Shown here in pieces: positions 10,271 through 64,000 of a stretch of DNA of 64,000 nt. Location of the stretch: the NCBI GenBank assembly GCA_030748415.1, contig JASMMA010000004.1, positions 86,501 through 150,500 of the forward strand, read 5' to 3'. The stretch's first letter is position 1. Each line of letters begins with the position of its first letter. The notes beneath the pieces are model-generated. The model made no database searches. It was given only the letters and a program-made list of their open reading frames with translations, and had not been told where the DNA came from. This DNA comes from Planctomycetota bacterium (GTDB lineage Bacteria; Planctomycetota; UBA1135). The translations under genes and the position numbers were made by a program.

Positions 10271-10529
10271 GCTTCTACTTGGAGGATGTGGGGGAAATGG
10301 GGTGGGCTATTCGAAACCCGAGACGAGACCTCAAGTTCCAAGGAATGGGCCCCTCTATACTATATTCCACGCAGCGAGTACCCGGGGAGTTTGATGAAAT
10401 TTTCTAAGAATATTCATTCCGGGAGCAAGCGCGGTAACCTCTTTAAATATAAAAGGTTAGGACGACCTAAAGCCTGGGGACATTTTGGGTCGAATAAGGA
10501 TTGCACTTTCTTAACGAACCCCTCTCAAC

Positions 10530-17589: not shown

Positions 17590-17613
17590 AGGGGTAGGAT
17601 ACGCACTTATTGG

Positions 17614-37700: not shown

Positions 37701-37789
37701 GAGCTGGTCTCCTCACCGTTCTTTAAAAGCAGGAAGGCCAAAAGGGCGGCGATGATGGGGAGGAGGATTCGTAGAGATTTCACAGGCAC
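34787..37789 (-). CDS. Large carboxypeptidase regulatory-like (CarboxypepD_reg/Ig-like) repeat protein, single N-terminal TM
   Basis: Repeated modules e.g. ISVTGKVFDKHTLQPIAQAEIRAW, DGRFTLDGLGPGEWNIRAEAEDYAP, SGFVTRADQPVEGLTIMLNSL; TM LRILLPIIAALLAFLLL. Confidence 0.82.
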   Translation of the reverse strand: MPVKSLRILLPIIAALLAFLLLKNGEETSSTPSPLGFLQDPQLETSLGESAEIDAPLGVEERKPTEAIHLLRALHLDGTPTSKTTFFLEEDGRNWKSISNDGTLTIPADGPSLRVAALCDGLWSKVHTLQALERTEKSESLLLIETQSAKAHLWIHHSDQTPVQNFRVQARWAGQLEAESLSEARRGTLWTRVHDWEIGSLGTTDYLQLPPGKWTFKAQADGMAEATASLELLPGDSKTLSLLLVEGAFVQGQALQGEDSPLAGAVAMLLRDGAESYLELVPPDERGFLSPTNGKTETDSKGKFRVGPVEAGTYRLQLGAEGFQAWISDPFEIAIGSEKSLPPQILQRGPGLLVEVVHAVDQSPIPHAEVSWLGNNPLTSMVSSLIPWEKGGETDSQGRLQLENMPLLGVQVRARAEGFSASQASSNPDSKSLRIELYPAISVTGKVFDKHTLQPIAQAEIRAWQEKGDLLGSMMGGMGDASNYPSINAGKDGRFTLDGLGPGEWNIRAEAEDYAPQTLGPIRLSPEAPIQDLEIPMGPGATVLITVLDDHGLPQAGSLLALNSFEGPASPDGKQTDSNGLATFEHLPMGYYQFQAFQPGFQSGALAAMQGDLSGLETLSTFLRIDEEKIYELELGGAILPSSISGFVTRADQPVEGLTIMLNSLSGMKTAKTDDIGYYELENVREGDYMLLVGQFGLGSGVGIYQTLHVSPGEAIQHDIDIPATRVRVLVQDSQTGEPLSNIPVMLRPSLGSAGGGYLNSDPDGIAYFDLLEPANYVLSVGHSAMPIFGGGQSYSTVILEDFYVGENETREVVVPLSPAAQVEATVLDSFGEPIQGAGVFACSPSGQAIGPFSLNTTDAKGQLKLGSLPEGELVILARHSSFGTVQKTVHLQVGQREEIELILQAGCMLKIQVLDSEQQPKPGVIAVLLNQANIPVSNMMAGPEAISYGMNSMSGGEQSIGPFAPGEYILLLSDSGGQNKRQKITIEPGVPEMRFEIEY

Positions 37790-39824: not shown

Positions 39825-41819
39825 TTATTGGCCAGAAATTAAATCAACTTGGGTCGTAGCACCTGGATTCACATATACGCTGGTCGTAGAGCCAGCAGCT
39901 TCGCTCATAAAGAGGAGTGCGCCATTTTGGCCGGAAGAGATGCTGACTTTGTAGTCTCCTGATTTCAGGCCCTCGAATCGGAATCGGCCCTGGGAATCGA
40001 GGCGGACATTCTTAGAGAAATATCCAAATCCATGATTGACTTGAAGAGTTAAGAAGGCGGTTCCCCCGGCCAAGGGTTCACCACTACTATTTTTTCCAGT
40101 TCCCGTAATAACCCCTCCGCGGGTAAGTCGGAAAGCGCCGGCGTCAATATTGCTTCCATTCGAGCAATTAACAGAGGAAATTGAACTCAAATAAGCAGGG
40201 TGTTTGACTTCGATTTGCAGGGAGTCTGGATAGGCGTTGCTGAAATGGAAAATGCCACTTTTGTTTGTGGCGACCTCTTGTTTTGGGACATTGTTGGGGT
40301 CAGGGCCAACGCCGCCAAATAAGCCATAAGAGTTTTCTTCTTTCCAGTCTTTTCCGTGAAGAATGACTTGTGCACCGGCGACGGGTTCGCCACTAAAGGT
40401 GTCGATTACAAGGCCGGAGATTTTTCCACCCTTTTGAAGATGAATGTCAATTCCGTGAACAGTTTCTCGTTGAACAGTGAAGCCTGTTGAGTAAGTCGAA
40501 GAAAAACCATCAGCAACAGCCATCAAGCGATAAGAGCCGGGATTGATTCCTTCGAACAAGAAATTGCCATTATCGTCTTGAAAGGTTTTTGGACGGCCAT
40601 TCTGGACGTAAAGAGCGGTACCTCGGTTCACGGATAATAGGGATAGTTGAAAGTTGCGAAGGGGTGCACCATCATCAGACAGAACGCGCCCTGCTACAGA
40701 TCCCAAACGGTGCATCACAACTTCAATATCGGTTTTGTCCGCCTTGATGCGAGGGAGATTGGACGCTGAATAGCCAGCAGCTTGAACGGAAAGTCCATAA
40801 AGGCCCTCGGGGAGGCCACCGACTTTGAATGTCCCATCTTGCTCCGAGATTCCAGTCGAACTAAACATCGGCTTAGGGCGCATCCGAGAGACTTGAATTT
40901 TCGCGCCAGGTACTAAAGTGCCGTCATCAGTCCGAACAACGCCAGAAAGAAAGTGCTCAGTTCCAAGCTCAATTTTCTTTTCAAGGGAGCGGTTATCTCC
41001 CATCATGACTAATGGGTGGATTCGAGTTGCTGCGTAGCCCTCATGGGAAACGGAAAGAGTCCACAACCCCTGAGGGAGTAGGTCGGCGATAAAACTGCCA
41101 TCCTGTTGGGCGACCATTTGGATTCGGCGACCCATCTCTTCATCTTCGATTTCGAGTTCTTCGACATCGCGAGGGACGAAGCGGCTGGCCTGGCGTTGGA
41201 ATATGAGCGAAGCGGGGAGGGGGTTTCCAGCCGTATCGGTGACGACTCCAGAGATTTGATAACCCTTATTCAGGATAATTGGATTCAATGTTTGGTTTTC
41301 GAGAAGGGTCGTGACAGGAACTCCTTCCTTGGCCGCATATTCAGGGTGGCGAACCCACATGTCATAATCGGTATCCGCTTGTAAGCGGGTGAATCGAAAG
41401 AGCCCCTTTTCATTCGTCTTCACCTTAAAAGATGGAATCGAGGCGAATTCTTCTGGGGTTAAAGAAAAGGCGGCGGATTGTTCAAGGCGCTCGGTGAGGG
41501 CAACAAGGGCGTTGGAAACAGGCTCACCAGATTCATTGGTTACGGACCCATGAATTTCCCCGCGAGAGAGCTTGTCGGCAGTGGGGGACGAGCCCGCCTG
41601 CGTGCGCCGGCCGGGACTCTGGGTCAATCTAGGGGAGTCCACTTGGGCGCCGACGCCGTCTTCAATATTGAAGGAATCCAAGGTAGGGCCATCTGAGTCG
41701 TTGCTGGAGTCCTCAGAGGGGCTCAGGGTGAGCATAAAGGCAATTGCTGCTAGGACAGCAAGCAAGATGGCAATCGGAATGAGGGCGGCACTCCCGCGGG
41801 TCTTTTTTCTGTAATTCAT
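39825..41819 (-). CDS. Carboxypeptidase regulatory-like repeat protein, single N-terminal TM
   Basis: GEIHGSVTNESGEPVSNALVALTE, ISGVVTDTAGNPLPASLIFQR, LSGVVRTDDGTLVPGAKIQVSRM, VAGRVLSDDGAPLRNFQLSLL; TM LIPIAILLAVLAAIAFML. Confidence 0.85.
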   Translation of the reverse strand: MNYRKKTRGSAALIPIAILLAVLAAIAFMLTLSPSEDSSNDSDGPTLDSFNIEDGVGAQVDSPRLTQSPGRRTQAGSSPTADKLSRGEIHGSVTNESGEPVSNALVALTERLEQSAAFSLTPEEFASIPSFKVKTNEKGLFRFTRLQADTDYDMWVRHPEYAAKEGVPVTTLLENQTLNPIILNKGYQISGVVTDTAGNPLPASLIFQRQASRFVPRDVEELEIEDEEMGRRIQMVAQQDGSFIADLLPQGLWTLSVSHEGYAATRIHPLVMMGDNRSLEKKIELGTEHFLSGVVRTDDGTLVPGAKIQVSRMRPKPMFSSTGISEQDGTFKVGGLPEGLYGLSVQAAGYSASNLPRIKADKTDIEVVMHRLGSVAGRVLSDDGAPLRNFQLSLLSVNRGTALYVQNGRPKTFQDDNGNFLFEGINPGSYRLMAVADGFSSTYSTGFTVQRETVHGIDIHLQKGGKISGLVIDTFSGEPVAGAQVILHGKDWKEENSYGLFGGVGPDPNNVPKQEVATNKSGIFHFSNAYPDSLQIEVKHPAYLSSISSVNCSNGSNIDAGAFRLTRGGVITGTGKNSSGEPLAGGTAFLTLQVNHGFGYFSKNVRLDSQGRFRFEGLKSGDYKVSISSGQNGALLFMSEAAGSTTSVYVNPGATTQVDLISGQ

Positions 41820-45882: not shown

Positions 45883-47286
45883 TCAAGCCGACTTGCGGCG
45901 TCGGCGGGAGGTTGCTTTTTTGACAAAGCGAACACCGTTCTTTGTCCAGCGCGCACTTAGGTGGGCGCCGCGACTGTGTTGACCATCTAGGATTTCGTTG
46001 GTGAGTGGATCTTCCACCAAGCGGCTAACAGTTCTGCGAACTTCACGAGCTCCGTACTCTTCGCTGTAACCTTCACTCGCGAGGATAGAAGGGAGTTTCG
46101 CTGACCATTCCAGCTGTACTCCAGCGTTGCAAAGTCGGGAAGAGACTTCTTCCAACTTCATTTCCGCGATTCGCGCGGCCGCCTTCCTGCTCAAAGCGCC
46201 GAAAACTTGTACCCCGTCAAGGCGGTTCAAAAGTTCTGGCTTGAAGTAGCGGCGCATGGCGGCTTGAGTGAGTTGGACGAAATCTTGTTCCTCGAGGCAC
46301 CCTTCGCGTCCGAATCCCAATCGAGAGGAAGCTTCCGCGTAGTCAGCAGTGCCAACATTTGAAGTCATGAGCACAACAGCGTTCCGGAAACTAACGGTGT
46401 TCCCTTTAGAGTCAGTCAAGCGACCGTCATCCAGGATTTGCAACAACATGTTGTGGAGTTTTTCGTGCCCCTTTTCAACTTCATCGAAAAGAACAACAGC
46501 GTTCGGGTTTTCGATGAGAGCTTCAGTCAAGGTCCCGCCTTCATTGTGACCCACATACCCGGGAGGGGCTCCAATGAGCTTTGCAGTTTCGTGGGGGAGT
46601 GCGAACTCCGAACAATCAAGCCGCACGAGGGACTTATCATCCCATAAATTGCGTGCAAGTGATTTTGCCAACTCGGTTTTCCCGGTCCCAGTTCGACCAA
46701 CCATTAAGAAGGACCCGATGGGACGAGTTGGATCATTCAATCCAACTGATGCTTTGCGAACTGCGCGACAGATTGCGCGGACATGATCGTCCTGGCCAAC
46801 AACCTCACTAAGAATCTTGGCTTCCAAGTTTTCTGCACGGTCGCGGAGTTCTTCCAGCGACTGTTCTTTTTGGGCTTCGACTTCGGCCTCTGCTTCCGCA
46901 GGAAGGGCAACAGTGTGAATTTCCAAACGAGGATTGACATCCACACAGATTTGATAAAGCAAATCTTCTGCAGCTGCGGCATCATCAGGATAAATTTCCT
47001 GAACGCGAGGAAGAACGGTTTCGTTCAGACCAACCACGCAGGCATCCACAATGAGATGGCGATATTCACGACGATCTGGAGGGTCGTCTCCGCCGCCGCG
47101 TGGAATGCGAACAGCTTCTTCGTCCGAGAGGATTCGAACGCGAATGAAACCATCGATGAGGTCGAAGTATTTGTAAACTAGGCCGCTTTCGTTGAGCACT
47201 TGATTCTTTCTCCTGCCCGAGGGGTTCGTCGGGCTATTTCTCTGTCGGCCGGTTCCCTTGGGAACCTTTAGGATGTTCCGCCCCAT
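45883..47286 (-). CDS. ClpA/ClpB-type AAA+ ATPase with a single AAA module and unusual N-terminal region
   Basis: FLMVGRTGTGKTELAKSLAR (Walker A), AVVLFDEVEKGHEKLHNMLLQILDDGRLTD (Walker B), NAVVLMTSNVG, YGAREVRRTVSRLVEDPL; GGAGGA Shine-Dalgarno 7 nt upstream of ATG at 47286. Confidence 0.9.
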   Translation of the reverse strand: MGRNILKVPKGTGRQRNSPTNPSGRRKNQVLNESGLVYKYFDLIDGFIRVRILSDEEAVRIPRGGGDDPPDRREYRHLIVDACVVGLNETVLPRVQEIYPDDAAAAEDLLYQICVDVNPRLEIHTVALPAEAEAEVEAQKEQSLEELRDRAENLEAKILSEVVGQDDHVRAICRAVRKASVGLNDPTRPIGSFLMVGRTGTGKTELAKSLARNLWDDKSLVRLDCSEFALPHETAKLIGAPPGYVGHNEGGTLTEALIENPNAVVLFDEVEKGHEKLHNMLLQILDDGRLTDSKGNTVSFRNAVVLMTSNVGTADYAEASSRLGFGREGCLEEQDFVQLTQAAMRRYFKPELLNRLDGVQVFGALSRKAAARIAEMKLEEVSSRLCNAGVQLEWSAKLPSILASEGYSEEYGAREVRRTVSRLVEDPLTNEILDGQHSRGAHLSARWTKNGVRFVKKATSRRRRKSA

Positions 47287-48289
47287 GACCGAATCCTCCG
47301 CCACCCAAGAAGACCAACAGTTCCTAGCTCTGCTGGTTCATCGCGGTTTTTTCGCTAAAGCCGACGCCGTGCGGGTTCTGCAAAGTGCTTCGGCTAAAGG
47401 GTTTACGGCTGCCCTAATGGCGGCCACCGGCTGGGATTCTAAGAAGCTAAACTACCTTCGGATGACCAAGGGCTTGCTGGAGCCAGTCATCCCCGGTTTT
47501 GATGATGCCGAGCGCATTGGCACCGGTGGAACCGCGGACGTTTTTAAAGCACGGAGAAAGAAAGACTTCGCCACAGTCGCCCTCAAGGTCCTTTTGCCAC
47601 GCCTCGCCCTTGACCCTCCATCGGTGAAACGCTTTCTGGAGGAGGGCAAGCTTCTTCAAACTCTTCAACATCCTTCAATCGTGTCGGGCCATCGGGTGTT
47701 CAAGTTTATGGATACCTATGTTTTGGAAATGGATTTCATTCCGGGAAAGACTCTGGAAGAAATCTTGGATGAAGGCGATCCAATTGAAGAGGAAACAGCC
47801 TTATCGGTAGTTCTTCAAGCGGCTCGCGCCCTGGAATACTTGCGTACTCAAGAAATTGTGCATCGTGACATGAAACCGGGAAACCTCATGTTGAAACCAG
47901 ATGGAACCATCATTTTGATTGACCTTGGTTTTGCGGGCGCGGGAATGGAGGGCCGCGTTTCGGAAGATTCCACTTTGGGAACACCCTCCTACCTTGCGCC
48001 CGAGCAGGCGCTCGGAGATGAAAGCCTTGATGCGCGCGCCGACATCTACTCTTTAGGTGTTACTCTTTACCATCTGGTCATGGGAAGCCTGCCCTTTACC
48101 GGCGAGAGCGAGGGCGAGGTCATGCGCAAGCAGATTCTCGAAGGCTTAAAGGGATCCGCAATGAAAGGCCGCGATATTTCTCCGCGGATGCACTATGTCA
48201 TTGAAAAAATGATGGCAAAGGACCGAGAAATTCGATACGCGTCGCCTGCAGAACTCGTTGAAGATTTAGAATCGTTTGGCCCAGCTTAG
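47285..48289 (+). CDS. Serine/threonine protein kinase
   Basis: ERIGTGGTADVFKARRKKDFATVALKVLLP; HRDMKPGNLMLKPDG; LIDLGFAGAG (DLG instead of DFG); GTPSYLAPEQALGDESLDARADIYSLGVTLY. Confidence 0.93.
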   Translation: MTESSATQEDQQFLALLVHRGFFAKADAVRVLQSASAKGFTAALMAATGWDSKKLNYLRMTKGLLEPVIPGFDDAERIGTGGTADVFKARRKKDFATVALKVLLPRLALDPPSVKRFLEEGKLLQTLQHPSIVSGHRVFKFMDTYVLEMDFIPGKTLEEILDEGDPIEEETALSVVLQAARALEYLRTQEIVHRDMKPGNLMLKPDGTIILIDLGFAGAGMEGRVSEDSTLGTPSYLAPEQALGDESLDARADIYSLGVTLYHLVMGSLPFTGESEGEVMRKQILEGLKGSAMKGRDISPRMHYVIEKMMAKDREIRYASPAELVEDLESFGPA

Positions 48290-51582: not shown

Positions 51583-52305
51583 CTAACTTGCATTCAGCTG
51601 AAAAAACCAGTGTTGGCAAATAGTTGCTGCGGCTGGGCCAGCTGATTCGATGCGCAAAATAGTTGGGAGAATCCCAACGCGTTGAATCCCCTCGCTTTGA
51701 AAGTAAGTCATTTCCTCTGGGCTGAAGCCGCCCTCAGGACCCACGAGCAACATGATTTCTTTTGGAGGCTCCAATGTAAGGCTCATTCCTAAAGGAAAAG
51801 AATCAGGTTGCAAGACAAGGGGCTTGGCTGGAGGAGCCTCTTCAATGGCCTGCTTTAATGGCACAGGTTCTTCTGAAAGAATGGGCGGGAAGGGGCGGTT
51901 GCATTGTTGGCAGGTTTCCCGGGCCAATTTATTCCAACGGTCTAAGCGGCTTTTGGAGAAGCCTTTTCGCCCAGCAATGCTCCGCTCACAAATCAGAGGC
52001 ACAATGCGCTCCACCCCAGCCTCGGTGGCTCGGACGATCAAGTCGTCCGCCCGAGAGCCTTTAGGCCAAGCAGTTGCCAAAGTAATCGGAAGGAGGGGAA
52101 GCCTTGGAATTTCGCATAAACCAGCCAATTCCAAAAAATCAAAGCCGTTCCATGTGGCCTTGAGAGCACCTCCATGAGGAAGGAGCAGGAGAATTTCCTG
52201 GCCATCCTCCAATCTGAGGGCTTTCAGATGCCTATAAAGGTCCGGTTGAGGGGACCACGGGCCAGTCAAGTGCTCGGGTGCTTCGGTGAGGAAAAAGAAG
52301 CGCAT
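51583..52305 (-). CDS. rsmE: 16S rRNA (uracil1498-N3)-methyltransferase family (RsmE)
   Basis: MRFFFLTEAPEHLTG...LATAWPKGSRADDLIVRATEAGVERIVPLICERSIAG...LLVGPEGGFSPEEMTYFQSEGIQRVGILPTILRIESAGPAA. Upstream part of the listed 560-aa ORF is antisense to the FHA gene and excluded. Confidence 0.93.
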   Translation of the reverse strand: MRFFFLTEAPEHLTGPWSPQPDLYRHLKALRLEDGQEILLLLPHGGALKATWNGFDFLELAGLCEIPRLPLLPITLATAWPKGSRADDLIVRATEAGVERIVPLICERSIAGRKGFSKSRLDRWNKLARETCQQCNRPFPPILSEEPVPLKQAIEEAPPAKPLVLQPDSFPLGMSLTLEPPKEIMLLVGPEGGFSPEEMTYFQSEGIQRVGILPTILRIESAGPAAATICQHWFFQLNAS

Positions 52306-52433
52306 GGGGTGAGGATGATAGTAACCTCGACTCTCTTGAGAGGTACTCTGGGGAGCGGTTTTGGCGATTTCCCTAGCTGGGTAGGTGCCTCTAAACTGCC
52401 CCTCTACGGATTCCCCGTTAGCTTCCTTCCCGA

Positions 52434-54179
52434 ATGATTCGCATTGAGATCCTGAGCGGCCAGGATGCCGGCCGCTTGGTCGAGCTTGAGCCCGGCTCCC
52501 ACACCCTTGGCAGGCGTGAGGGGGTGGATTTATTGATTCAGGGCGATGCCGTTTCTGGAAAGCACTTGGAACTGACCATTTCCGAAGATGGAACTGTTCA
52601 CTTTCGCGACCTAGGCTCGACCAATGGCACTTGGTCCGGCGGGCTGAAAGTGGAGGAAGGCGAGTGGTTTCGAGGGACCGAACTTCAGTTGGGGAATCTC
52701 CAGCTTCGACTTGTTTCCGAAGATGAATCCCCAGGCGAGTCCACCACTCCCGCCACGACATCCCAACAAGATTCCGATGCTGAAATCCATCGCCGTGCTG
52801 TGCGGGAAGCCCTTCAGGAAAAAAGCCGAGGTGGTTCCTGGATGATGTGGGTTCTTTTCGCCGTTGTCCTTTTGGCTGGTGGCCTCTATTGGTTTTTGAA
52901 TCGCCCGGCGGCCATTGAAGTAGATCGCAGCGCTGGACCCCGCCGGGTGGCAGCTGCGCAACTTGATGCAATCGATGACCTCGGAAAATTTGAAAACGCC
53001 GTTTCAGAATCCTGGAAGTTGAGCAAAGGGCTTGAGATGGTTGGTGGGCAGTTGAGGAGCGATGGGGGGAGCCGGCGCGCTGAACTCTTGCCCCGTTTTG
53101 AAACCGCTCCATGCCGCCTTCGATTCGAGGCTCAAGTTGAGGGTAATCTTCAGGTGTGGCCCCTTTTAACTTGTGGCAACTCTGAAACTGAAATCGCCCC
53201 ATCCATATGGTCGGGAGATTCTCTGGCAAATGGCGCCGTAGAGCTTGATTTACCCTGCGACTCATTTGAGTGGTTCCAACTTCAGCTCCAAATCAAGGGT
53301 GCAGGTTCCCTTTCAAACTTGAGCGTTTCGGCCGTCGATGGTGATGGCATCGCTTTGAGGAAAGTGGGCGGTAGCCGAAAAGTAATTCAGGCTGGAGCGA
53401 ACTTGGCTCTATATGGCTTAGGGGGCTTGATTTTTGAATCCCACGGAGCAGGGGGTCAATGGGAATCCGATCCCAAAGGACTTCGCTTTATTCCAAAAGA
53501 ATCTGCATGGATTCGTGTGTCCGGTAAGAATCCATTGGTTCTTACTGGGCTTGAGCCTGTCGGCGCGACAACCGGTTTGAAGGTCATGGGTGCGAAAGGT
53601 CTCCTATTCCGAGGAGAGCGCCCTTTCTGGCTTTCATTTGAACAACCCATGGATGCGGCGGTTGGTAGCGATGGTATTTATCTTCAACCCACGAAACCCC
53701 TCCTATTGGATTGGGATTTTACTTTTCCTTTAGGAGAGGCAGCGCGCCTTGAAAGTGAGATTCGTCGAAGTTCTCGTCAAAACGATACCGCCAGATTGCT
53801 TCAAGTAACCCAGGAGCTTCTCTTCAACTGGCCCTTCAATGAAGAGCAAGTTTCCCTTGCCGAAAGCAAACGCGCTGAATTGATGACCAATGGTCAAAAA
53901 CAACTCAGCATATTGGAAAGTTCAGTTGCAGAAGCGGTTTTCCTTGCTTCCCCGGAAGAAATGAAGCGAGTTCTTGCCGATGTGGCCCAATTTGTTGATG
54001 GCCTTCCGGGGACCCGAGTCGCCGAAGAGGCCACGGACATGATTCAAGTTTTGGAAAATGAAATTTCCCAGGTCCTTGAAGACCGGCAAACTGAACTCAA
54101 TGCCTACAACAAGCGGCTTCTTGGAGGACTCATGCGAAGTTATCCCCACCTTGCCCAATGGCTGGAGGTTCAGGAATGA
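52434..54179 (+). CDS. FHA-domain protein with TM and jelly-roll-like central region
   Basis: GSHTLGRREGVDLLIQGDAVSGKHLELTISEDGTVHFRDLGSTNGTWSGGLKV; TM WMMWVLFAVVLLAGGLYWFL. Confidence 0.88.
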   Translation: MIRIEILSGQDAGRLVELEPGSHTLGRREGVDLLIQGDAVSGKHLELTISEDGTVHFRDLGSTNGTWSGGLKVEEGEWFRGTELQLGNLQLRLVSEDESPGESTTPATTSQQDSDAEIHRRAVREALQEKSRGGSWMMWVLFAVVLLAGGLYWFLNRPAAIEVDRSAGPRRVAAAQLDAIDDLGKFENAVSESWKLSKGLEMVGGQLRSDGGSRRAELLPRFETAPCRLRFEAQVEGNLQVWPLLTCGNSETEIAPSIWSGDSLANGAVELDLPCDSFEWFQLQLQIKGAGSLSNLSVSAVDGDGIALRKVGGSRKVIQAGANLALYGLGGLIFESHGAGGQWESDPKGLRFIPKESAWIRVSGKNPLVLTGLEPVGATTGLKVMGAKGLLFRGERPFWLSFEQPMDAAVGSDGIYLQPTKPLLLDWDFTFPLGEAARLESEIRRSSRQNDTARLLQVTQELLFNWPFNEEQVSLAESKRAELMTNGQKQLSILESSVAEAVFLASPEEMKRVLADVAQFVDGLPGTRVAEEATDMIQVLENEISQVLEDRQTELNAYNKRLLGGLMRSYPHLAQWLEVQE

Positions 54180-55828
54180 CTCGTGGGGCTGGACTCGACC
54201 CGGGCCGCACAGTTGTGCGCCTTGCGGAGGTGCAAGCCCGAAAGGGAGTTGTCACTTTGACGCGCTACCATTCGGTAGAAGTCGAATCAGGCGAGACATC
54301 GATTGAAGTTACCGAAGATGCTTTCGGAAACCTGAGGAAAAAGACTGCTCCTCTTCGAGTGGGCTTAACCGGCTCGGATGTAATGGTTCGGTACCTTCCC
54401 GTCCCACCTGTGGAAGATTGGCGCCTTGAGCGTTTGATGGAATTTGAAGTCCGCGAAATTGAAGCCCGCTCTGGTTCCCCGCTGGCGACTTCTTTTAACC
54501 TTCTTCCGGTACCCAAAGAACTGGATGAAGATGACACAGTTTTGTTGGGGCTCATCAAGGAAGAATTGTTGGGCGAATGGTTAGAAGCTTGCGGAAAACT
54601 TCCCGTGCAAGGCTTTACGCCGAACTCGATTGCCCTTTACAACGCCTTTCTCGCTTTGGGCGACCATGCTCCAAGTGTGACCCTGCTCGCAAACATTGGT
54701 GCAGGCACAATTGACCTTGCCTTGGTTCGCGGGTCTGAGTTGTACTTTGCCCGATCGGTTACCACTGGATTGGACCAGCGTGATTCGACTTTGGGAGGTC
54801 GTCTTGGCGTTGATTCTCTTCGCGCCCGCCGCTTAATACACAAGCATCTGGATTTGCGCGGCGCCTTAGGGGAACGGCTTTCTTCCGACGCTGAAAGGGT
54901 GACTCGACCTTTGTTGCCCCTTTACGATTCCATGCCGACTCTTCTTTCGGGTGTGATTACGCTTTGCAAAGCTCAAGCGAGGTTGCGTGACTTGAGCTTA
55001 GATCGGATTCTTCTTACCGGCGGCGGGGCTTTAGCCAATGGGCTTGAAGAGTTCCTGAACAAAAGAACGGGCGTTCCTGTTGAAGTTTGGAATCCAGTAG
55101 AAATGTTAGATTCAGATGGCCTTCTGGATGACCAATTCGATGACCTTGAAGCCGATGGAACAGCCGCAACTGTGGCAATCGGGTTGGCATTGAGTGCTGC
55201 AGACCCTGAGCTTTATGCATTGGAAGTCCTTCCAGCATCAGCTCGAAAGAAGAGGGATTTCCAAGAGAAGGGAATATTTTCTGTAATTGCCGCCGTACTT
55301 GCGGTCATCTTTCTACTGGTAGAACTTCAGGTCTATTCCGGGCAAGCCACTGAATTGTCAAATCGCTCGAGGTTGCTTTCTGCTCAAGCGAAATCTGCTC
55401 AAGACAATGATCGAATCGCCGACGACCTTGCGCTTCAACTTGAAACCGAAACCAAGCTTTATCAAGAACTTGTGGCTCGTCATGCGATTCAACGAAGTGC
55501 TCAAGAAATCTTAGCCGCATTGGAACAATGGCTTCCCGACAACTTGTGGGTCGATAGTTTCGAAGTAGGCATGGCCCCTGGCGAAGATTGGGATTTGTCC
55601 GGTCGAAGCGTGCCCGTTGTCACGATTCGCATCCGAGGTGAAAACCGCGCCCGCCGAGCTGCCGATGCCTTTACTGAGTTCAGCGAGAAGGTAAAAGAGG
55701 TCCTTCCAGGAAAAGAACAAGCCATTCAAATTGCGAGCAAGGAACGGGGTCGCAACCCTGAATGGACTTTGACCGCTGTTCTACTTGAAGATGGCCCAGA
55801 CAGCCGCCCAGAGGGGGTAGAAGAATGA
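54176..55828 (+). CDS. PilM-like ATPase fused to PilN/GspL-like domain
   Basis: GLDPGRTVVRLAEVQARKG...; LLANIGAGTIDLALVRGSELYFARSVTTG; LLTGGGALANGLEEFLNKRTGVPVEVWNP; C-terminal TM and coiled coil then ILAALEQWLPDNLWVDSFEV; ATGA overlap with FHA gene. Confidence 0.82.
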   Translation: MTRGAGLDPGRTVVRLAEVQARKGVVTLTRYHSVEVESGETSIEVTEDAFGNLRKKTAPLRVGLTGSDVMVRYLPVPPVEDWRLERLMEFEVREIEARSGSPLATSFNLLPVPKELDEDDTVLLGLIKEELLGEWLEACGKLPVQGFTPNSIALYNAFLALGDHAPSVTLLANIGAGTIDLALVRGSELYFARSVTTGLDQRDSTLGGRLGVDSLRARRLIHKHLDLRGALGERLSSDAERVTRPLLPLYDSMPTLLSGVITLCKAQARLRDLSLDRILLTGGGALANGLEEFLNKRTGVPVEVWNPVEMLDSDGLLDDQFDDLEADGTAATVAIGLALSAADPELYALEVLPASARKKRDFQEKGIFSVIAAVLAVIFLLVELQVYSGQATELSNRSRLLSAQAKSAQDNDRIADDLALQLETETKLYQELVARHAIQRSAQEILAALEQWLPDNLWVDSFEVGMAPGEDWDLSGRSVPVVTIRIRGENRARRAADAFTEFSEKVKEVLPGKEQAIQIASKERGRNPEWTLTAVLLEDGPDSRPEGVEE

Positions 55829-56586
55829 ACCTCGACGCATTCTGGCAAGCGAACCGTCGGTTTCTAATCGGAGTCGCCATCGGCCTTGTGAGCTTTCTCA
55901 TATTGGGTTCTATTTTGGTGAGTGGTCCAAAGAAAGCTGCAGCATCTTCTCGCAGGAGCATCATGACCGCAACTCGCACTCTGCGGGGGAAACACGTTTC
56001 CTCACAGGATGTAGCTCGAGCTCGCACACGATTAGAGGCGCTTAAGAAACAAGGCCGAAAGTTGGCGGAACTAGCCTTGCCAATTGCAACTGATGGCTTT
56101 GTGATTCCCGAAGGGCAATCCCCATCGAAGCATTACATAGAGTTCACGGGCGCTCGGCGGCAAGAGCTCATATCTGCAGGTCTGCTTCGGGACATGGAAA
56201 TTGACGAGTCTTTAGGTCTTCCTGCGGTTTCTCCTTCCCAACCTCAAATTATTGCCAAAGTCCTACATGGCTTTTTTGTTGTTGACCAAATGATGCGCCT
56301 AGCAATTGACTACGGCGCTGAGTCAGTTGATGACATTGCCATCTCTACTCGCTCAAGTCGCCCTGGTACTTTGCGTGCATCGCTATTAGACATCACAACT
56401 GTAGAGTTGGAAGTTAGTATTCAAGAGGAGCGTCTTCGCCCACTTCTCCAGAAGGTTGTTGCGCATGACCCGCCATTGGGCCTTGTGCGAATGGAAGTTC
56501 TCCCCGTCGATAAGAAAGGTAGTCGAAGTATCTTGTTTGAGTTTGGAGTCGGTTCGATTCCTGAAACCCAAGGAGAGGAAGAATGA
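55825..56586 (+). CDS. Single-TM protein, PilO/GspM-like by position and topology
   Basis: RFLIGVAIGLVSFLILGSILVSG TM then helical and alpha/beta periplasmic region; ATGA overlaps both neighbours. Confidence 0.5.
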   Translation: MNLDAFWQANRRFLIGVAIGLVSFLILGSILVSGPKKAAASSRRSIMTATRTLRGKHVSSQDVARARTRLEALKKQGRKLAELALPIATDGFVIPEGQSPSKHYIEFTGARRQELISAGLLRDMEIDESLGLPAVSPSQPQIIAKVLHGFFVVDQMMRLAIDYGAESVDDIAISTRSSRPGTLRASLLDITTVELEVSIQEERLRPLLQKVVAHDPPLGLVRMEVLPVDKKGSRSILFEFGVGSIPETQGEEE

Positions 56587-59237
56587 ACAGAGAAAAAATT
56601 CTCCTGCTTTGCGTAATTTTGATTCTGGCGCTCATGAGTTGGTCTCTTTTTTCTGAAGAGGGAACATCTCGAGTGCGACCTGGAGTTCGAACCATGGAAC
56701 TTCCTGAAGCCGGCGGGGAAAATGTTGTCGTTGATTTCGATTTGAAGACGGGCAATCGCGATGTTTTCCGCGAACCACGCGAAACGGAACCCCTCGAGCC
56801 ATTGCCGCTCGTTCTTCCACCCTTGGATGAAATGGCGATTTTATTTCCGCCACCCATCCCAGACTCGGGAGCCGATTTCTGGAGCCGACATCTTCTTCAA
56901 TACCCACCCGAACTCCCTGGCGATATCGACGAACTTGTGACGGAGTTTGACGACTCGAATGAAGAAAAATACGAAGCTCCAACTGGAGAATCCTCTCCGG
57001 ACATCTTTGAGAGTTCGGAAGATGACTTATTGAAGCTTTACGACCTTGTGAAAATAAATGTAGTTGATGTCCGATGGGGCCGCATATTGAACGAGGATCG
57101 CTATTCCTTGGTTTCAGGTCGCTCTACGCTCAAGTTTCAAGATGTTGATCCAAAAACAGGAGCCGACCGATTTGAACCCTACACATTTGCTCCAGATGAA
57201 TACCATTCATTTAAGTTTGCCGATACTCTTAGGAATCGCATTGAGTTAAAAATAAGAAATCTTCCGAAATCTTCGGGTAGTATCCCTGAAAGATTAGAAG
57301 CCATCGCATGGCTTCTAGAGCAAGCTGATTCCGATTCCCTTGCTTTTATTCGCGCCGAATCGGTTGCCATTGCAACAACGGAGCTTGGTCGAGATGACAT
57401 TCAAACTTGGTTAGCCTTGGGCGATGTTTGGGAAAGGACATTTCAGTGGGATCGCGCCTTTAGCTTGTATTCTGCAATGGCTGGTTTTTCTGTTTCCCGT
57501 GAGCCACTCGACGGGATTAATCCAAGGCCCTTCGCTCGTTCTTCCGCACCCCAAGCTCGGTTGGGTCGGATTCTAGAACGACTGGGAATGGATCAGGAAG
57601 CCGAAAGTCAATACCGCGAAGCGGCAGCACTTTCGGATGGCAATCCCGAAGTCTTGCGGCTGCTTGGCGAGCTCCTCACTCGCACAGGCAGGGCGTCAGA
57701 AGCTCTTCCCGTTTTACTTCGGGGGGAACCTTTGTATCGGTCTCGTTCCGCTCCCAGTGCCTTATCTCATGGTGTTGCAATCGGGAAAGCTCGTTTAGCA
57801 AATGGCGACTTTTCTGGAGCCACCCAAAGTTTTAGAGAAGTTTACCGAGCAGGCGGCGCCGCTCCCCAAGCCTTGCCCGCAGCAGCTGGTGAATCTTCGT
57901 CTGCCTATTTGCAGGGAGATTTCCGAGCTGCTTTTCAGCTTGCCGATGACGCGATTTCCGTTTTTGGTGCTGATTGGAGACTTCTCTACATGCGTGGAAT
58001 TAGCGCTGCTGCCTTTGGACAACCTGCCGGAGAGGTTGTGCGCGATTTGCGTGCTGCTGTTGAGGGCGCTGAATTGGATGCTGCCCCCGCATTGGCCGCG
58101 CTTGCATTTTGGTTGAACACACTCGGTCATTCTGCCGATGCTCAAGAGAGCTTAAATCAAGCGCTACAACTCAGCCCAAACCTTCATTACGCTCGATACC
58201 TTCGAGCAAGGTGGGCCCGTGAAAACCATGACCTGACTTCTGCAAATGAGGATTTGAGTTTTCTGATTTCAGAATCTCCACGGTGCGGCGCAGTTCTTGG
58301 CGAACTTGCTTGGTTACTTAATCAAGAGTCTCGACACGGATTGGCCGAAGTTGCTTTCCGTCGAGCTATTTTGGAAGCTCCTCACTGGGCGGACGCTTCT
58401 CTTCGTAGAGGCCTTAACTTCTTACAACTCAACCAAGTTGAGGAAGCTCGAATGAGCCTCGACCAAGTGTCCGGGGCGGGTCTGGAGAATGCGCGCCAAA
58501 ATGCCCTCGCGTGGGCCGCTTATCTTGAGGGCGATGTTCAAGCCGCAGTAGGGGAGTTTGCACTTCTTCAAGACAATCTTCGTTCCCAAGAAGAAGACCC
58601 TCAAGCTCTTTTCGCCAAGACTTGGCAACGGCGAATCCAAGAGCGGGCCAGCATGGTTCGGTGGACTGATGCCTTTAGTGGCCGCATTCCTCGGCCGCAG
58701 TGGGATGTCCGTACTTCGGCGCGGAATGGTGTTGAGCCCCGGGTTCGCGACGGTGCTTTGCGCCTGACCGGCACTCATGCAAAAGCAGGAGAAACCAGCG
58801 CTTTCCGCTCTCTTCGAGCTCTTTCATTCCGTTCCGCAAGTTGTATCTGGACCGTAGGCCCTGACCACCGCGGAGAGGCAGGTGTTGGAATCGCCCTTGA
58901 ATCCCGCCGCCGGCGAAGTTGGGGCTTCCAGGTATTCCGTGGCCACGACGGAGGAGTTCGCTGGAAAATGACAAGCGGTACCAAGGGAGTTATGGGCGAG
59001 CTCAATCAACAAGTGATACCGGGTCAAGCCGTCGAAGTTCGTTTTGTGCTTGACCGCGAATCTTCTCCACCTGAGCTCACAGTTTGGGTTGGCTCAGAAG
59101 AAGCCTATCGTGCGCCGGAGCCGCGATTGAAAACTCCAACCGGGGACATCATCCTTGAGGTTTTTGCAAAAACTGTGAATGCTCTTCCCATTGATGTTTC
59201 TCTGGATCACACCGAACTCGTTTACACCCAGAACTAA
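56583..59237 (+). CDS. TPR-repeat protein with N-terminal TM and C-terminal jelly-roll-like domain
   Basis: TM LLLCVILILALMSWSLF; TPR-like segments (ARLGRILERLGMDQEAESQYREAAALSDGNPEVLRLLGELLTRTGRASEALPVL...); C-terminal ~190 aa beta-rich. Confidence 0.75.
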   Translation: MNREKILLLCVILILALMSWSLFSEEGTSRVRPGVRTMELPEAGGENVVVDFDLKTGNRDVFREPRETEPLEPLPLVLPPLDEMAILFPPPIPDSGADFWSRHLLQYPPELPGDIDELVTEFDDSNEEKYEAPTGESSPDIFESSEDDLLKLYDLVKINVVDVRWGRILNEDRYSLVSGRSTLKFQDVDPKTGADRFEPYTFAPDEYHSFKFADTLRNRIELKIRNLPKSSGSIPERLEAIAWLLEQADSDSLAFIRAESVAIATTELGRDDIQTWLALGDVWERTFQWDRAFSLYSAMAGFSVSREPLDGINPRPFARSSAPQARLGRILERLGMDQEAESQYREAAALSDGNPEVLRLLGELLTRTGRASEALPVLLRGEPLYRSRSAPSALSHGVAIGKARLANGDFSGATQSFREVYRAGGAAPQALPAAAGESSSAYLQGDFRAAFQLADDAISVFGADWRLLYMRGISAAAFGQPAGEVVRDLRAAVEGAELDAAPALAALAFWLNTLGHSADAQESLNQALQLSPNLHYARYLRARWARENHDLTSANEDLSFLISESPRCGAVLGELAWLLNQESRHGLAEVAFRRAILEAPHWADASLRRGLNFLQLNQVEEARMSLDQVSGAGLENARQNALAWAAYLEGDVQAAVGEFALLQDNLRSQEEDPQALFAKTWQRRIQERASMVRWTDAFSGRIPRPQWDVRTSARNGVEPRVRDGALRLTGTHAKAGETSAFRSLRALSFRSASCIWTVGPDHRGEAGVGIALESRRRRSWGFQVFRGHDGGVRWKMTSGTKGVMGELNQQVIPGQAVEVRFVLDRESSPPELTVWVGSEEAYRAPEPRLKTPTGDIILEVFAKTVNALPIDVSLDHTELVYTQN

Positions 59238-59845
59238 TGCCTAAAAATTCCCAATCAGCATTTACCATTTTGGAACTCATGGTTGTTCTTGTGATTATTG
59301 GCATTTTGATGTCGGTATTCGTAATCGGTGGTGGGCGAATGTTCTCTTCCTCAAATAAGCGCAAAGCTCAAGCTCAACTAACCGCCTTGTCTGCTGCCAT
59401 TGAGGAGTTTCGTCAGATTGAAAACCAATACCCTGACGATCGCCTACCAGCAGGCATTACGGGCAATGTTCAAAACTCCTGCGCCGAGGCTTTGTTCTTA
59501 GCCCTTTACGACTCTGAATACTCTGGTCGCCGCCCTGACCAAGAGTGGTTGATTAATCTAGACGGCGATACTTTGCGCAAGGCCATGACTTCCTTGCCAA
59601 GCCGCGAACTTTTCGAGTTTGGGGACCCTTGGATGAATCCTATCGTCTACTTTGAGAGCCTTCACTATGGCGACCAAGTGGTTGTGCTAGCAGGTGCTGA
59701 GGGCGCAATTGAGGAACAGACGGTGACTGCCTTGCGAAACGAACGAACAGGTGCCTGGGAAGCGTCTGGCGGATTCCAACTGATTTCCGCTGGAGAAGAT
59801 GGTTTTTTTGGAACTGAAGACGACATCTCTCAACTCGGGAGCTGA
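59237..59845 (+). CDS. GspG-like major pseudopilin / prepilin-type protein
   Basis: SAFTILELMVVLVIIGILMSVFVIGGGRMF; KRKAQAQLTALSAAIEEFRQIENQYPDD; ISAGEDGFFGTEDDI C-terminal GspG-like motif. Confidence 0.88.
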   Translation: MPKNSQSAFTILELMVVLVIIGILMSVFVIGGGRMFSSSNKRKAQAQLTALSAAIEEFRQIENQYPDDRLPAGITGNVQNSCAEALFLALYDSEYSGRRPDQEWLINLDGDTLRKAMTSLPSRELFEFGDPWMNPIVYFESLHYGDQVVVLAGAEGAIEEQTVTALRNERTGAWEASGGFQLISAGEDGFFGTEDDISQLGS

Positions 59846-60840
59846 TGCGCGGATTCACTCTCGCCGAACTTCTTCTCGTCTTGTTCTTGCTCGGCGTCTT
59901 GCTGGGCCTCCCGATTGCACTTGTTGACCGTGCCGATCCAGGCGCTCGGGGTTTGGCGACATCTCTTTCAAGTTTTATTGAAAGCTCCCGTGACCGCGCC
60001 CGCACAACCGGTCAACCTGTCCGACTTGAACAGTTGCCAGAGGACCTTGAACATTCGGCTCGTTTTACGCGTCTCGTTTTTCGGCCTGTTTTGGAGGCTA
60101 GCTTTGAGCCTGGCTTAGTTCGAAGAGAAGGCCTCATGGCGACAGGTTCTGCTCTTGTTGGAGAGACATCGGGTCGTTTCGGTGCCTGTTTGGATTTGAG
60201 AGAAGGCGGGGGCGTAACTGTTTCTGGCCGGGGTGGCCAACCTAAATTGACAGAAGGCTTCGTTCTAGAGTTTCACTTTTTGAATGAACTTGGTGGTGAA
60301 GGGAATTTATTGGAGTGGCCGGGTCTTTGCCAGGTTTGGGTAGATCGAAGTGCTGGACTTCGTGCACGCGTTGAGATTCAAGCAAGCCAGACTCCTGAGC
60401 TTGCAACCGCACCTTCAATTTCAGCCTCTACTGATTTGGCCTCTTTACCAAACTTAGTCTCACCTGGGCGTTGGCATCATGTTCGCCTGAGTGCTTTGAG
60501 TGGTTCGATTCAACTGTACTTTGACGGAAAGTTAGAAGCTACCCAGCCCTGGGAGGGCACCTTAAGAACCCCCGATAGCGAGCCGTTTTTAGGTGACTCC
60601 CGCGGGCGTTTTCAGGGCCTTTTGGATGAGTTTCAGGTCCTTGCTCGATATCGAGAAAGCGGTCCTGAGCTCCGAGATGGGGTTGAGGTTTTCGTGGATA
60701 CAACCTTCTTGGAAATCGATAGGGATGGTTTTTTGGATCCCATTCAGCACCCTGATTCTGTTTCCGTCCGCATTATGGAGCTCGACTCCGAGGTGGCCTC
60801 CTTTGTGGTGGGCCGCTTTACCCAGGAGGCAGTGCAGTGA
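59845..60840 (+). CDS. GspH-like pseudopilin fused to LamG/concanavalin-like domain
   Basis: MRGFTLAELLLVLFLLGVLLGLPIAL; LamG-like GRFGACLDLREGGGVTVSG...GRWHHVRLSALSGSIQLYFDGKLEATQPWEG...FLGDSRGRFQGLLDEFQVLAR. Confidence 0.82.
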   Translation: MRGFTLAELLLVLFLLGVLLGLPIALVDRADPGARGLATSLSSFIESSRDRARTTGQPVRLEQLPEDLEHSARFTRLVFRPVLEASFEPGLVRREGLMATGSALVGETSGRFGACLDLREGGGVTVSGRGGQPKLTEGFVLEFHFLNELGGEGNLLEWPGLCQVWVDRSAGLRARVEIQASQTPELATAPSISASTDLASLPNLVSPGRWHHVRLSALSGSIQLYFDGKLEATQPWEGTLRTPDSEPFLGDSRGRFQGLLDEFQVLARYRESGPELRDGVEVFVDTTFLEIDRDGFLDPIQHPDSVSVRIMELDSEVASFVVGRFTQEAVQ

Positions 60841-63800
60841 ACGATTGGGGTTCCGTTCAACATAAATCAAAAGGCTCTGCCCTCATCATGGTCATATTGG
60901 CTTTGGCGCTCATGATGTCTCTGGGTATTCCCTATCTCATGACATCTAAGCTTCGCTCTGCAGCTGCGCGCGAAGCCTGGGCACGCGCAGAAGCTCGAGA
61001 AGTAGCAACATCGGCTTCCACAGTTGCGGTCTTCATGGAAGCAGAAACGCACCCCGCGTTGGACCCAACTCCACTTTGGGATGATTCTACTGAATGGGAT
61101 CCCAATCAAGGCGGTCCGCTTCCGGCTGCTTTGGGCGATGTGTGGAAAGGATGGCGGCAAACATGGGGATTGGAAGTCGAAGATCTTCAAGGCCGCATTT
61201 CTTTAGCGACTGCCTCGCCTGGTTTGATTCAGAATATTTTGCGCCCTTGTTTTGTGACATCCGATACGGATTTTATGTCTTTGGAATTGCCCGTAACAAC
61301 TACGGATGGTTTTCCAGACGCTGGCGTTTTGTTTATGAATGGAAACTGGTTGGAATATAGCGGTCGGACATCTCGGAGTTTTACTGGACTCAGCGGAGTC
61401 CCTGAAGATGAAATGCCAGATGACACGAGTCAAACACGCTTCCGCGAGGGAACTGTGGTCATTGACCCACGCATATGGAACTTGGCCTTTGCTCGTTTGA
61501 AGGATGGGCTGTTTTCTCCACCCGAAATGCTGGACGATCTTTTCGAGGCAGACATTTTAGGTGTCGGCACATTGCCAGAGTCAGATCGCCACATGCTTTC
61601 TAGAACTTGTTCCTTGCGCACGAGCCGCATGGGACAAGCCCCCTTTGGGCCTGCAGTTTGGCTTGCACGAGATATCAATCCGGACAACCCTGAGTATGCG
61701 GCTGTGACCGACTCAAGCGGTTTCTCTACGGCATCTCTTGTTCGTTTCGAACCAGAGGAGGGAGAGCCCCTGGACATGTATGCATTGTCTGCAACAACGG
61801 GCGGTTGGATTCATCTTGCTGCAGGTCTTCCCTCGGGCTTGATGCCCCTCTCGACTCGAGTTCGGTGTTTATTGCGCGAGCCTGTGAATATCAACTCTGC
61901 TTCTCCCGAAGTTTTGAAAGCTCTCGTTGCAGGTCTCCGGTGGCGAACTCGACCCAGCTTGCCCACTTATGACGATGATTTGCCTTCTGGGAATTGGCGA
62001 CGAGATTGGGTTCATCCATCTCAAGCAGTTTTGTTTGCTTCCCGGGTAATTGCTGCCCGCCCCCTCACAGGCGCTGCAGATCTTTGGGCGCGGGTGTTGG
62101 CGCCCATGGCGGAAGAAGCTGAATTAAGTGATTGGGAAGCATGGGCTATTCATCAAAACGGTCTCGACCCCGACCAGGGTGATTTGCTTCACACCACTGC
62201 CCCCTTCGAGTACCGAAGTGGGAACCGCTTTCTTCAACGAGCGAATGGTGCACTCCGTTCCCGTTTGGGCTCCACTTTGGCGCGCGTTTCCTACCGCGAA
62301 TCTGTTCGCGCTGCGCCAGCAGGTCCTTTGCTTCAAATGTTTCGAACGCAAGCAGAGTTTGAGGTGGCCACTCAATGGTCACGCGACTTGGTTGGAATGC
62401 GCACGACCCCCAATAACACCGGTAGTTTCGGGGGGGCGCATGAGCCACGAACGGGTTTAGCCCTTCGAGTTGGCGCCAAGCGGAATACTGGAATCGTGAT
62501 GCCGTCCATCGAGGCTGAAACTTCGGGGGTGATTCCAGTTCTTGCTCGCGAAAGCGAGACTGGTCCTGGATACGCAATCGGAGCATTTGAGCATTTTGAC
62601 TTTGAGCCCTCTCCTTTTGGTTGGGATTTGGGAGCTCGTGGCCCTCGCACGGATGACTTGTTTGAATGGGGCCTCTATGGGGAGGGTCAGACGGCCAGTC
62701 GAGTGGAACCACTTAGCTTGGAAGCTTGGTTCCGATTGGATGCCGGAAGCGCGGATGGCACTTTGATGGACCTCGCCGGTCCTTTTACAGAGTCCCAGCG
62801 CGTTGAAGCATCCCTGCTCGCAGGGGCTTTGGAAGTAAGAGCTTGGGATAATGCCGGTGAAGACCCCGCCGACCCCGACAACATGGAAGAAGCCCTTACC
62901 GTCCGTTTGGACCCTTCTCTTTATTCCATTTCGGATCGCTGGTTCCATTTAGGTTTACTTCTTCGAGCGGTGAGCCCACGGGGGGTTCAAGTTGCTGTTG
63001 ACGGAGTTCCTCGTGGCGAGGTTGATGGACTGACTTGGACGACTTCAGCAATTCCTGGATACGCTCCCGGTTCCCCTGATGATGTCATTCCGGTGGAATC
63101 TACGGAGGGCTTCCCAGCTAGGGGAGTACTGAAAATTGGTGATGAGATTCTTGAGTATTCTTCGAAAACAGCCACCAGTTTTATTACAACCCGAATTTCG
63201 GGCCCCACGGATTACATCGGTGGCCGAGTTGCTCGGGAATCGGACGACATTTCGGCCGGAGTGGTTGATTCCGATCACCCATCAGGTTCAGCCGTTGAGC
63301 GTTATGGTTACTCCAGCTTTCTAGCCTCGGATATTCCAACTGGTGGCGGCACACTTTCTGGTGGCATTGGCCCCTTCTCGGTTGCTTCTGGTGTTGACGG
63401 ACCTGACACGATTACTGTCACCACTTTGGGCGGATTTACTGTTGATATCGGAACGGGAATATCTGCAGATTACCTGGGGGAAATTATTTTGGAACCCATT
63501 GTTGAATCTGATCCTTTTTATCTTGAGGCTTTCCAAGAGGACGGCGGCTACGCAGCTATTTTTCAAGTGCGAACCGGGTGGTTAGATCAAGATGGAAACA
63601 ATCAAGGTGGGTTGGAGATTGTGCGCTACTCTTCCCGAACGGAAACAGGAATCAACATTATCGAGCGGGATGTCCAAAGCCCAGGTGTCCTTCGAGCCCC
63701 GGCCAACGCTTTTAATAACGGAAGTTTTGTTTTTGAATGGGATGACAACATTTCGAATCAAGCAGGGGAGCAATTATTAACCCTCCCGTTTTGGCAATGC

Positions 63801-64000
63801 TACATCATGCCGATTTCCATTAAGGGGAGTGGCGTTTCTGACTTGAGCTATTCCTGGACTGATGATGAACATTCTGAATTTGTCCAACTATATACTCCCG
63901 GAGATTCCAGCCTGACTGAATGGGTTCGTTACGACTCTATCCTGAATGGGTGTCTGGTTCGGGATGACTATGGTGCCATCAGTGCCGCAGTCGGAACTTA
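60837..64000 (+). CDS. Very large GspK-like minor pseudopilin with LamG-like domain, 3' truncated by window edge; not in the ORF track
   Basis: GTG start preceded by AGGAGG (7-nt spacing), GTGA overlap; N-terminus KGSALIMVILALALMMSLGIPYLMTSKLR; LREPVNINSASPEVLKALVAGL GspK motif; LamG-like LSLEAWFRLD...RWFHLGLLLRAVSPRGVQVAVDGVPRGEVDG; open to base 64000. Confidence 0.85.
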   Translation, partial: MNDWGSVQHKSKGSALIMVILALALMMSLGIPYLMTSKLRSAAAREAWARAEAREVATSASTVAVFMEAETHPALDPTPLWDDSTEWDPNQGGPLPAALGDVWKGWRQTWGLEVEDLQGRISLATASPGLIQNILRPCFVTSDTDFMSLELPVTTTDGFPDAGVLFMNGNWLEYSGRTSRSFTGLSGVPEDEMPDDTSQTRFREGTVVIDPRIWNLAFARLKDGLFSPPEMLDDLFEADILGVGTLPESDRHMLSRTCSLRTSRMGQAPFGPAVWLARDINPDNPEYAAVTDSSGFSTASLVRFEPEEGEPLDMYALSATTGGWIHLAAGLPSGLMPLSTRVRCLLREPVNINSASPEVLKALVAGLRWRTRPSLPTYDDDLPSGNWRRDWVHPSQAVLFASRVIAARPLTGAADLWARVLAPMAEEAELSDWEAWAIHQNGLDPDQGDLLHTTAPFEYRSGNRFLQRANGALRSRLGSTLARVSYRESVRAAPAGPLLQMFRTQAEFEVATQWSRDLVGMRTTPNNTGSFGGAHEPRTGLALRVGAKRNTGIVMPSIEAETSGVIPVLARESETGPGYAIGAFEHFDFEPSPFGWDLGARGPRTDDLFEWGLYGEGQTASRVEPLSLEAWFRLDAGSADGTLMDLAGPFTESQRVEASLLAGALEVRAWDNAGEDPADPDNMEEALTVRLDPSLYSISDRWFHLGLLLRAVSPRGVQVAVDGVPRGEVDGLTWTTSAIPGYAPGSPDDVIPVESTEGFPARGVLKIGDEILEYSSKTATSFITTRISGPTDYIGGRVARESDDISAGVVDSDHPSGSAVERYGYSSFLASDIPTGGGTLSGGIGPFSVASGVDGPDTITVTTLGGFTVDIGTGISADYLGEIILEPIVESDPFYLEAFQEDGGYAAIFQVRTGWLDQDGNNQGGLEIVRYSSRTETGINIIERDVQSPGVLRAPANAFNNGSFVFEWDDNISNQAGEQLLTLPFWQCYIMPISIKGSGVSDLSYSWTDDEHSEFVQLYTPGDSSLTEWVRYDSILNGCLVRDDYGAISAAVGT

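Follow-up and report, generated by a model that had tools for sequence, protein, structure and literature searches.

A conserved ten-gene planctomycete operon probably encodes the platform and pseudopilus of a split type II secretion-like machine

An operon of ten genes in a planctomycete genome probably encodes the assembly platform and pseudopilus of a split machine resembling the type II secretion system (T2SS), whose motor (GspE), platform protein (GspF) and outer-membrane secretin (GspD) would be supplied by a separate operon elsewhere in the genome (contig C68). The DNA analyzed here, referred to as the window, is a 64,000-nt stretch (C44:86501-150500) within a 2.46-Mb genome assembly; the closest named genome is that of Planctomycetes bacterium UBA7888, in which the L protein of the operon is 80% identical. 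A preliminary description of the window had proposed a pseudopilus or secretion-like locus built from altered T2SS and type IV pilus parts, and profile matches, fold matches and deep conservation now bear this out.

All seven of the co-oriented open reading frames (ORFs) first reported were confirmed in position and strand, as were their six junctions, which overlap by 1-4 nt (ATGA, ATGA, ATGA, TAATG, TGATG and GTGA). The locus was found not to end at position 64000, where K continues. Reading on along the contig revealed genes for GspJ-like and GspI-like proteins and for a protein designated X, joined by three further ATGA overlaps, so the full unit is FHA-L-M-TPR-G-H-K-J-I-X, ten genes with nine overlaps of 1-4 nt. 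On the 3' side, X is followed by a lipoprotein-like PPIase-type ORF and then by scpB. Upstream of the operon lies a divergent neighbor outside the machine, an RsmE-like rRNA methyltransferase gene on the minus strand (51583..52320, start approximate), which is reversed and upstream in most related loci and serves as a conserved upstream marker. Pfam Methyltrans_RNA matched only residues 389-550 of the long ORF at 51583-53265, which was rejected as a spurious extension of the RsmE-like gene. It was also considered whether the FHA gene might itself be false, lying as it does opposite a longer ORF on the other strand; this was rejected, as Pfam backs only the rsmE end of the antisense ORF. Frame or assembly artifacts, including in the LamG regions discussed below, were excluded because the genes are conserved in 20 related loci.

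As first described, the operon is led by an FHA protein (52434..54179, plus strand), with E-values of 3e-10 for the Pfam FHA domain and 3e-12 for Yop-YscD_cpl; it also matched the SctD/YscD cytoplasmic-domain family (Pfam/NCBIfam) at its N terminus. The N-terminal FHA domain is followed by one transmembrane (TM) helix at about residues 136-156, an extracytoplasmic β-rich region and C-terminal helices. The phospho-binding residues GR, SxxH and STNG are retained across the FHA homologs with one exception, a single homolog in which the called ORF does not include the FHA N terminus, and the FHA structures of GarA and OdhI match the FHA profile. The domain suggests that the machine is controlled by Ser/Thr kinases, and two Ser/Thr protein kinases encoded in the window, at 17614-19608 (with HEAT repeats) and 47258-48289, are candidate partners. 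Two large proteins made of repeated CarboxypepD_reg/Ig-like modules are also encoded in the window (34787-37789 and 39825-41819) and are probably surface or secreted proteins.

The second gene encodes L, a PilM::PilN fusion of GspL/Amuc_1101 type (54176..55828, plus strand). Its true start is most likely the internal ATG at 54176, which creates an ATGA overlap, because the alignment of homologs favors it. L consists of an actin-fold cytoplasmic domain, a PilN-like motif, a TM segment and an extracytoplasmic domain. Pfam PilM_2 was matched at 6e-10, and a profile of 17 L homologs searched against the PDB retrieved PilM (1.5e-21, positions 6-343) and Myxococcus xanthus PilN (0.0039, positions 350-466). 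The alignment retains GLDxG, GxGTxDLA and TGGGA, and also aLEiLPxxxrkkrxF immediately before the TM segment, which, given what is known of other actin-fold and PilN proteins, we take to be a nucleotide-site pattern and a PilN-like motif, respectively. The PDB profiles uphold the PilM-PilN fusion noted earlier, the unusualness of which had been overstated: GspL is known to be built in this way, and the fusion also occurs in the Amuc_1101 family. L had no direct match to any GspL model. NCBIfam Amuc_1101 was matched by all 17 L homologs (best 3.5e-40), and the L of the window scored 3.8e-25 and 88.8 bits against an equivalog cut-off of 650. Judged by these scores, L is homologous to Amuc_1101 but, being below the family cut-off, is not an equivalog.

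The adjoining gene encodes M, a predicted inner-membrane protein (55825..56586, plus strand) with a TM segment, a coiled coil and an α-β-β-α-β-β domain, which had no convincing match in Pfam/NCBIfam or in a PDB sequence search. Its structure was predicted with AlphaFold (pLDDT 80.2), and in a Foldseek search the top ten matches were all crystal structures of Amuc_1100 (6kny_A, E 1.7e-6, TM 0.70 by target), followed by M. xanthus PilO (2.9e-4). By predicted fold, M is PilO/GspM-like, closest to Amuc_1100 and then to PilO. In Akkermansia muciniphila, MUL2 comprises Amuc_1098-1102, i.e., a secretin, 1099, Amuc_1100, the PilM-like Amuc_1101 and the pilin Amuc_1102. MUL2 is reported to take part in mul-dependent accumulation of glycans and to be conserved in Verrucomicrobiales (PMC13174399), and published work presents Amuc_1100 as a pilus-associated protein of the outer membrane (PMC5332112, PMC10688800). 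The corresponding two genes adjoin in both systems and, as far as sequence and modeling can tell, the L-M core is homologous to that of MUL2. Unlike MUL2, the planctomycete locus has no recognized Amuc_1102-type pilin and no secretin, and it adds FHA and TPR proteins, GspG/H/K/J/I with LamG, and X.

The TPR protein (56583..59237, plus strand) has an N-terminal hydrophobic anchor, a TPR array recognized by Pfam and a C-terminal region that looks β-rich; its position is kept in loci of the order. It is followed by a GspG-like pseudopilin (59237..59845, plus strand) that matched N_methyl and T2SSG in Pfam and, below cut-off, typeII_sec_gspG in NCBIfam (3e-12). The GspH-like minor pseudopilin (59845..60840, plus strand) matched NCBIfam gspH below cut-off (1e-6) and carries an inserted LamG (ConA-like) module, which was detected as Laminin_G_3 (6e-9), is present in 18/18 H homologs and can be regarded as solid. 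Beyond the window, the GspJ-like (65642-66562 in extended coordinates) and GspI-like (66559-66975) pilins were recognized by their prepilin N termini and position, and X (66972-68441) is a protein of 489 aa with a CxxC-rich C terminus. With K, the locus encodes a complete G/H/I/J/K pseudopilin set with five prepilin-type N termini, most model matches being below curated cut-offs. The gene set is noncanonical, as had been claimed, and fuller than first described, with J and I downstream.

K (60837..64000 in the window, on to 65645 in extended coordinates; C44:147337-152145, plus strand) is a giant GspK-like minor pseudopilin of 1602 aa, and a usual GspK is about one fifth of this length. Its N terminus, GSALIMVILALALM, is of GspK type and has no Glu5, and the protein carries the motif VNINSASPEVLKAL. 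NCBIfam T2SS_GspK was matched at 2.9e-4 and T2SSK at 0.011-0.025, both below curated cut-offs, and a PDB sequence search gave nothing convincing. The last 1043 residues were modeled as all-β with modest confidence (pLDDT 67.6), and the best PDB match of this model by Foldseek was a laminin G pair (2.7e-4). Because of the strength of this fold match and the detection of Pfam LamG in only 3/16 K homologs, LamG is likely present in K but weaker than in H. The proposal that both minor pseudopilins carry LamG is therefore secure for H and weak for K, and the design is not unusual: LamG_3/ConA modules are known from pilins, LamG_3 being one of the most frequent choices in modular pilins, and GspK too has a modular build (PMC8179133). 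The locus resembles modular pilins of the Streptococcus sanguinis PilC type (PMC8179133) in having a lectin-like module on minor pilin H, and probably on K, and differs from them in being a conserved operon of ten genes that also encodes an assembly platform, and in the much larger K.

Motifs of the form RG..GT....H..GT.V were observed at about residues 1348-1364 and 1443-1459 of K (L006:1338-6146), and Pfam Rcc01698_C was matched in 4/16 K homologs, so that these modules resemble the β modules of phage tails and gene transfer agents (GTA). A phage-derived tail protein was rejected as an identity for K: the motifs, Rcc01698_C and low-quality viral Foldseek matches, the latter uninformative because their rmsd is high, suggest shared β modules and no prophage. 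K had no NCBIfam match as a Verru_Chthon cassette protein either. G and I resemble that cassette (TIGR02596/TIGR02598) in weak matches, mostly to the N-terminal helix; these are far below cut-off, and the other cassette proteins were unmatched.

In silico analysis showed that L was matched in 99/101 relatives and in 43/43 relatives of good quality. Over the available sequence, gene order was unchanged in 20/20 loci of the order (14 from the same family and six from other families, with L045 and L053 ending at contig ends). The order FHA-L-M-TPR-G-(H)-K was found in 13/20 loci from further planctomycete families, some genes of which were missed by the simple ORF caller. The arrangement in L128 was L-TPR-G-H-K-J-I, with FHA undetected; in L118 and L121, K was located away from the locus; L127 ended at a contig end, and L129-L131 retained mainly the first half. 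The K profile matched 156/294 genomes of the phylum at E <= 1e-3 and 76/241 genomes outside the order at E < 1e-8. The conservation of the locus is far beyond chance; the machine is ancient and, within a large section of the planctomycetes, widespread. As noted in the preliminary description, GspE, GspF and GspD are missing from the locus: none was found in any locus examined, from the order or from further families, and family searches found no GspE, GspF or secretin on the 217-kb contig.

The source genome was sampled by the same family searches, which found three GspF proteins, on contigs that also carry GspE-type ATPases (C68, C6 and C67), besides five genes with secretin domains and a single prepilin peptidase. 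A search for paired GspE/F/D, as suggested earlier, identified a GspD-E-F-G-H-I-J operon at C68:5125-12873 with no recognized C, K, L or M. D, E and F occurred together in 16 of the 18 K-positive genomes examined, usually with pseudopilins after F, and K, L and M lay beside them in none of the 18. The two operons were adjacent in no locus examined; in G115, where one contig carries both, about 36 kb separates them. Profile scores for the C68-type GspE fell into two groups, and outside the order this ATPase was present in 66/76 K-positive vs. 4/165 K-negative genomes, counts that are inflated by shared ancestry and depend on E-value cut-offs set after the scores were seen and on lists transcribed by hand. 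The safer counts by family, in which the effect of ancestry is only reduced, were 28/33 K-positive vs. 4/29 K-negative (Fisher 2e-8). Ten K-positive genomes had no strong C68-type GspE match; four of these belong to family f38, where the D-E-F operon is diverged in at least one genome (L151).

Several further observations concern these and other regions. Two filaments could exist, as a separate G/H/I/J set is encoded in the D-E-F operon. Some families have two neighboring gspD-type genes in this operon (L140 = G113; G127 contig C162 = L143), and one motor may work with two different secretins there. A second FHA protein of about 660 aa adjoins the D-E-F operon and another lies upstream of the L locus; both are present in G205 (L149:15608-17587 and L132:18013-19998), where the pair is a possible link between the operons. 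Two secretin-domain, lipoprotein-like genes of about 900 aa (L159:7307-10057 and 16037-18724; G000 contig C7) lie near a gene for an ExbB/TolQ-looking protein of 251 aa, without ATPase or GspF, and could be another envelope system. Finally, a secretin gene on contig C14 lies away from other machinery beside a gene whose 524-aa product has a hydrophobic N terminus resembling that of PilX/GspK (L160:7661-9235 and 9281-10603).

Taken as a whole, the machine would operate as follows. L (PilM::PilN) and M (PilO/GspM-like) would form a clamp reaching from the cytoplasm to the periplasm, and the GspE of the C68 operon would dock on L and, via GspF, extend a short G/H/I/J/K filament whose pseudopilins may be processed by the single prepilin peptidase that the genome searches detected. 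This filament would be capped by the giant K together with H, I and J, which would display LamG and other β modules facing the GspD pore or passing through it, LamG plausibly being a glycan-binding tip. GspC (PF11356) was found in 0/21 genomes, with positive controls in E. coli and Caulobacter, and for this reason we infer that the FHA or TPR protein may bridge platform and secretin. The FHA protein would read Thr phosphorylation and either replace the missing GspC/PilP linker or gate L, and the TPR protein would act as a periplasmic scaffold. As to cargo, extracellular polysaccharide, gripped for attachment or periplasmic import, is slightly favored, in line with what has been proposed for the homologous MUL2 system, over classical exoprotein secretion, because of the LamG on the filament, the MUL2-like L-M pair and the dextran-binding fibers of planctomycetes. 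Such fibers have been reported in P. limnophila and G. obscuriglobus (PMC5394234), and would bear on this machine only if these species carry the locus.

Protein secretion is suggested by the T2SS complement itself, and it is possible, if less probable, that the locus belongs to a classical protein-secreting T2SS that has diverged and been split over two operons, without uptake, its LamG modules selecting or holding exoproteins. This reading shares the architecture proposed above and differs from it in cargo. D, E, F, G, H, I, J, K, L and M are complete across the two operons, with pseudopilins of GspG, H, I, J and K type, an L/M-type platform and a co-occurring GspD/E/F operon as in a T2SS; scattered T2SS loci are known, e.g., in Legionella, and very few T2SS have been found outside Proteobacteria (Abby et al., PMC4793230). 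The planctomycete system differs from the T2SS in lacking a detected GspC, in an L that is PilM-like in sequence, in its additional FHA and TPR proteins and in its two unlinked operons with a pseudopilin set in each. Its K is about five times the usual size of GspK, and the nearest relatives of L and M are Akkermansia MUL2 proteins tied to glycan uptake.

It is improbable that the locus instead serves the type IVa pilus of this genome as its platform, supplying the missing PilM/N/O and LamG tip adhesins to the C6 cluster (PilB-PilT-PilB-PilC), which as fetched has ATPases and PilC and no recognized PilM/N/O/Q. L is PilM-type in sequence and its profile matches PilM and PilN structures, as the fold of M matches PilO; unlike in the type IVa platform, PilM and PilN are fused, and the set includes GspK/I/J/H-type pseudopilins. 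No PilP, Q, B, C or T was found within the loci examined. The retraction ATPase PilT, used as the control, occurs almost throughout the phylum and is unassociated with K (55/76 K-positive vs. 131/165 K-negative genomes, p = 0.25). The f36 genomes (G133, G148 and G172) have the locus with PilT matches of only about 1e-70 to 1e-74, which suggests that this family lost a true retraction ATPase, and C67 already carries a cluster of PilM type in which three small unassigned genes take the PilN/O/P position, together with a secretin, TPR, PilB and PilC. A self-contained, non-filamentous FHA/TPR/LamG envelope scaffold that recruited pilin parts and uses no ATPase is very unlikely: E, F and D are lacking from every locus examined and K is away from the locus in some families, but the five prepilin-type N termini, the conserved actin-fold nucleotide motifs of L and the strong co-occurrence with GspE argue against it.

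PilM-PilN fusions and LamG pilins are known separately. We found no description of the combined planctomycete set in the open-access literature, and the earlier designation of the locus as undescribed stands on that basis. With the split T2SS-like machine proposed here, much of a little-studied phylum acquires a well-defined, conserved envelope machine. Frequent failures to annotate T2SS outside Proteobacteria may have their cause in features of this kind: parts that are fused, giant or split over two operons, and no GspC. The machine also places Amuc_1101 and Amuc_1100 of Akkermansia in a platform context, as PilM::PilN and PilO-like proteins, and its named gene set makes it possible to test how whole polysaccharides enter the periplasm of planctomycetes and Verrucomicrobia. 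A wider and rather doubtful extension is a kinase-gated, glycan-gripping machine shared across the PVC superphylum, in which an Amuc_1101/Amuc_1100-type platform, already present in the last ancestor shared by the planctomycete and Akkermansia lineages, would drive a lectin-tipped pseudopilus through a GspD pore to capture polysaccharide and bring it into the periplasm. If this were true, Amuc_1100, studied as a pilus or outer-membrane probiotic protein, would be a PilO/GspM-like platform component of that machine.
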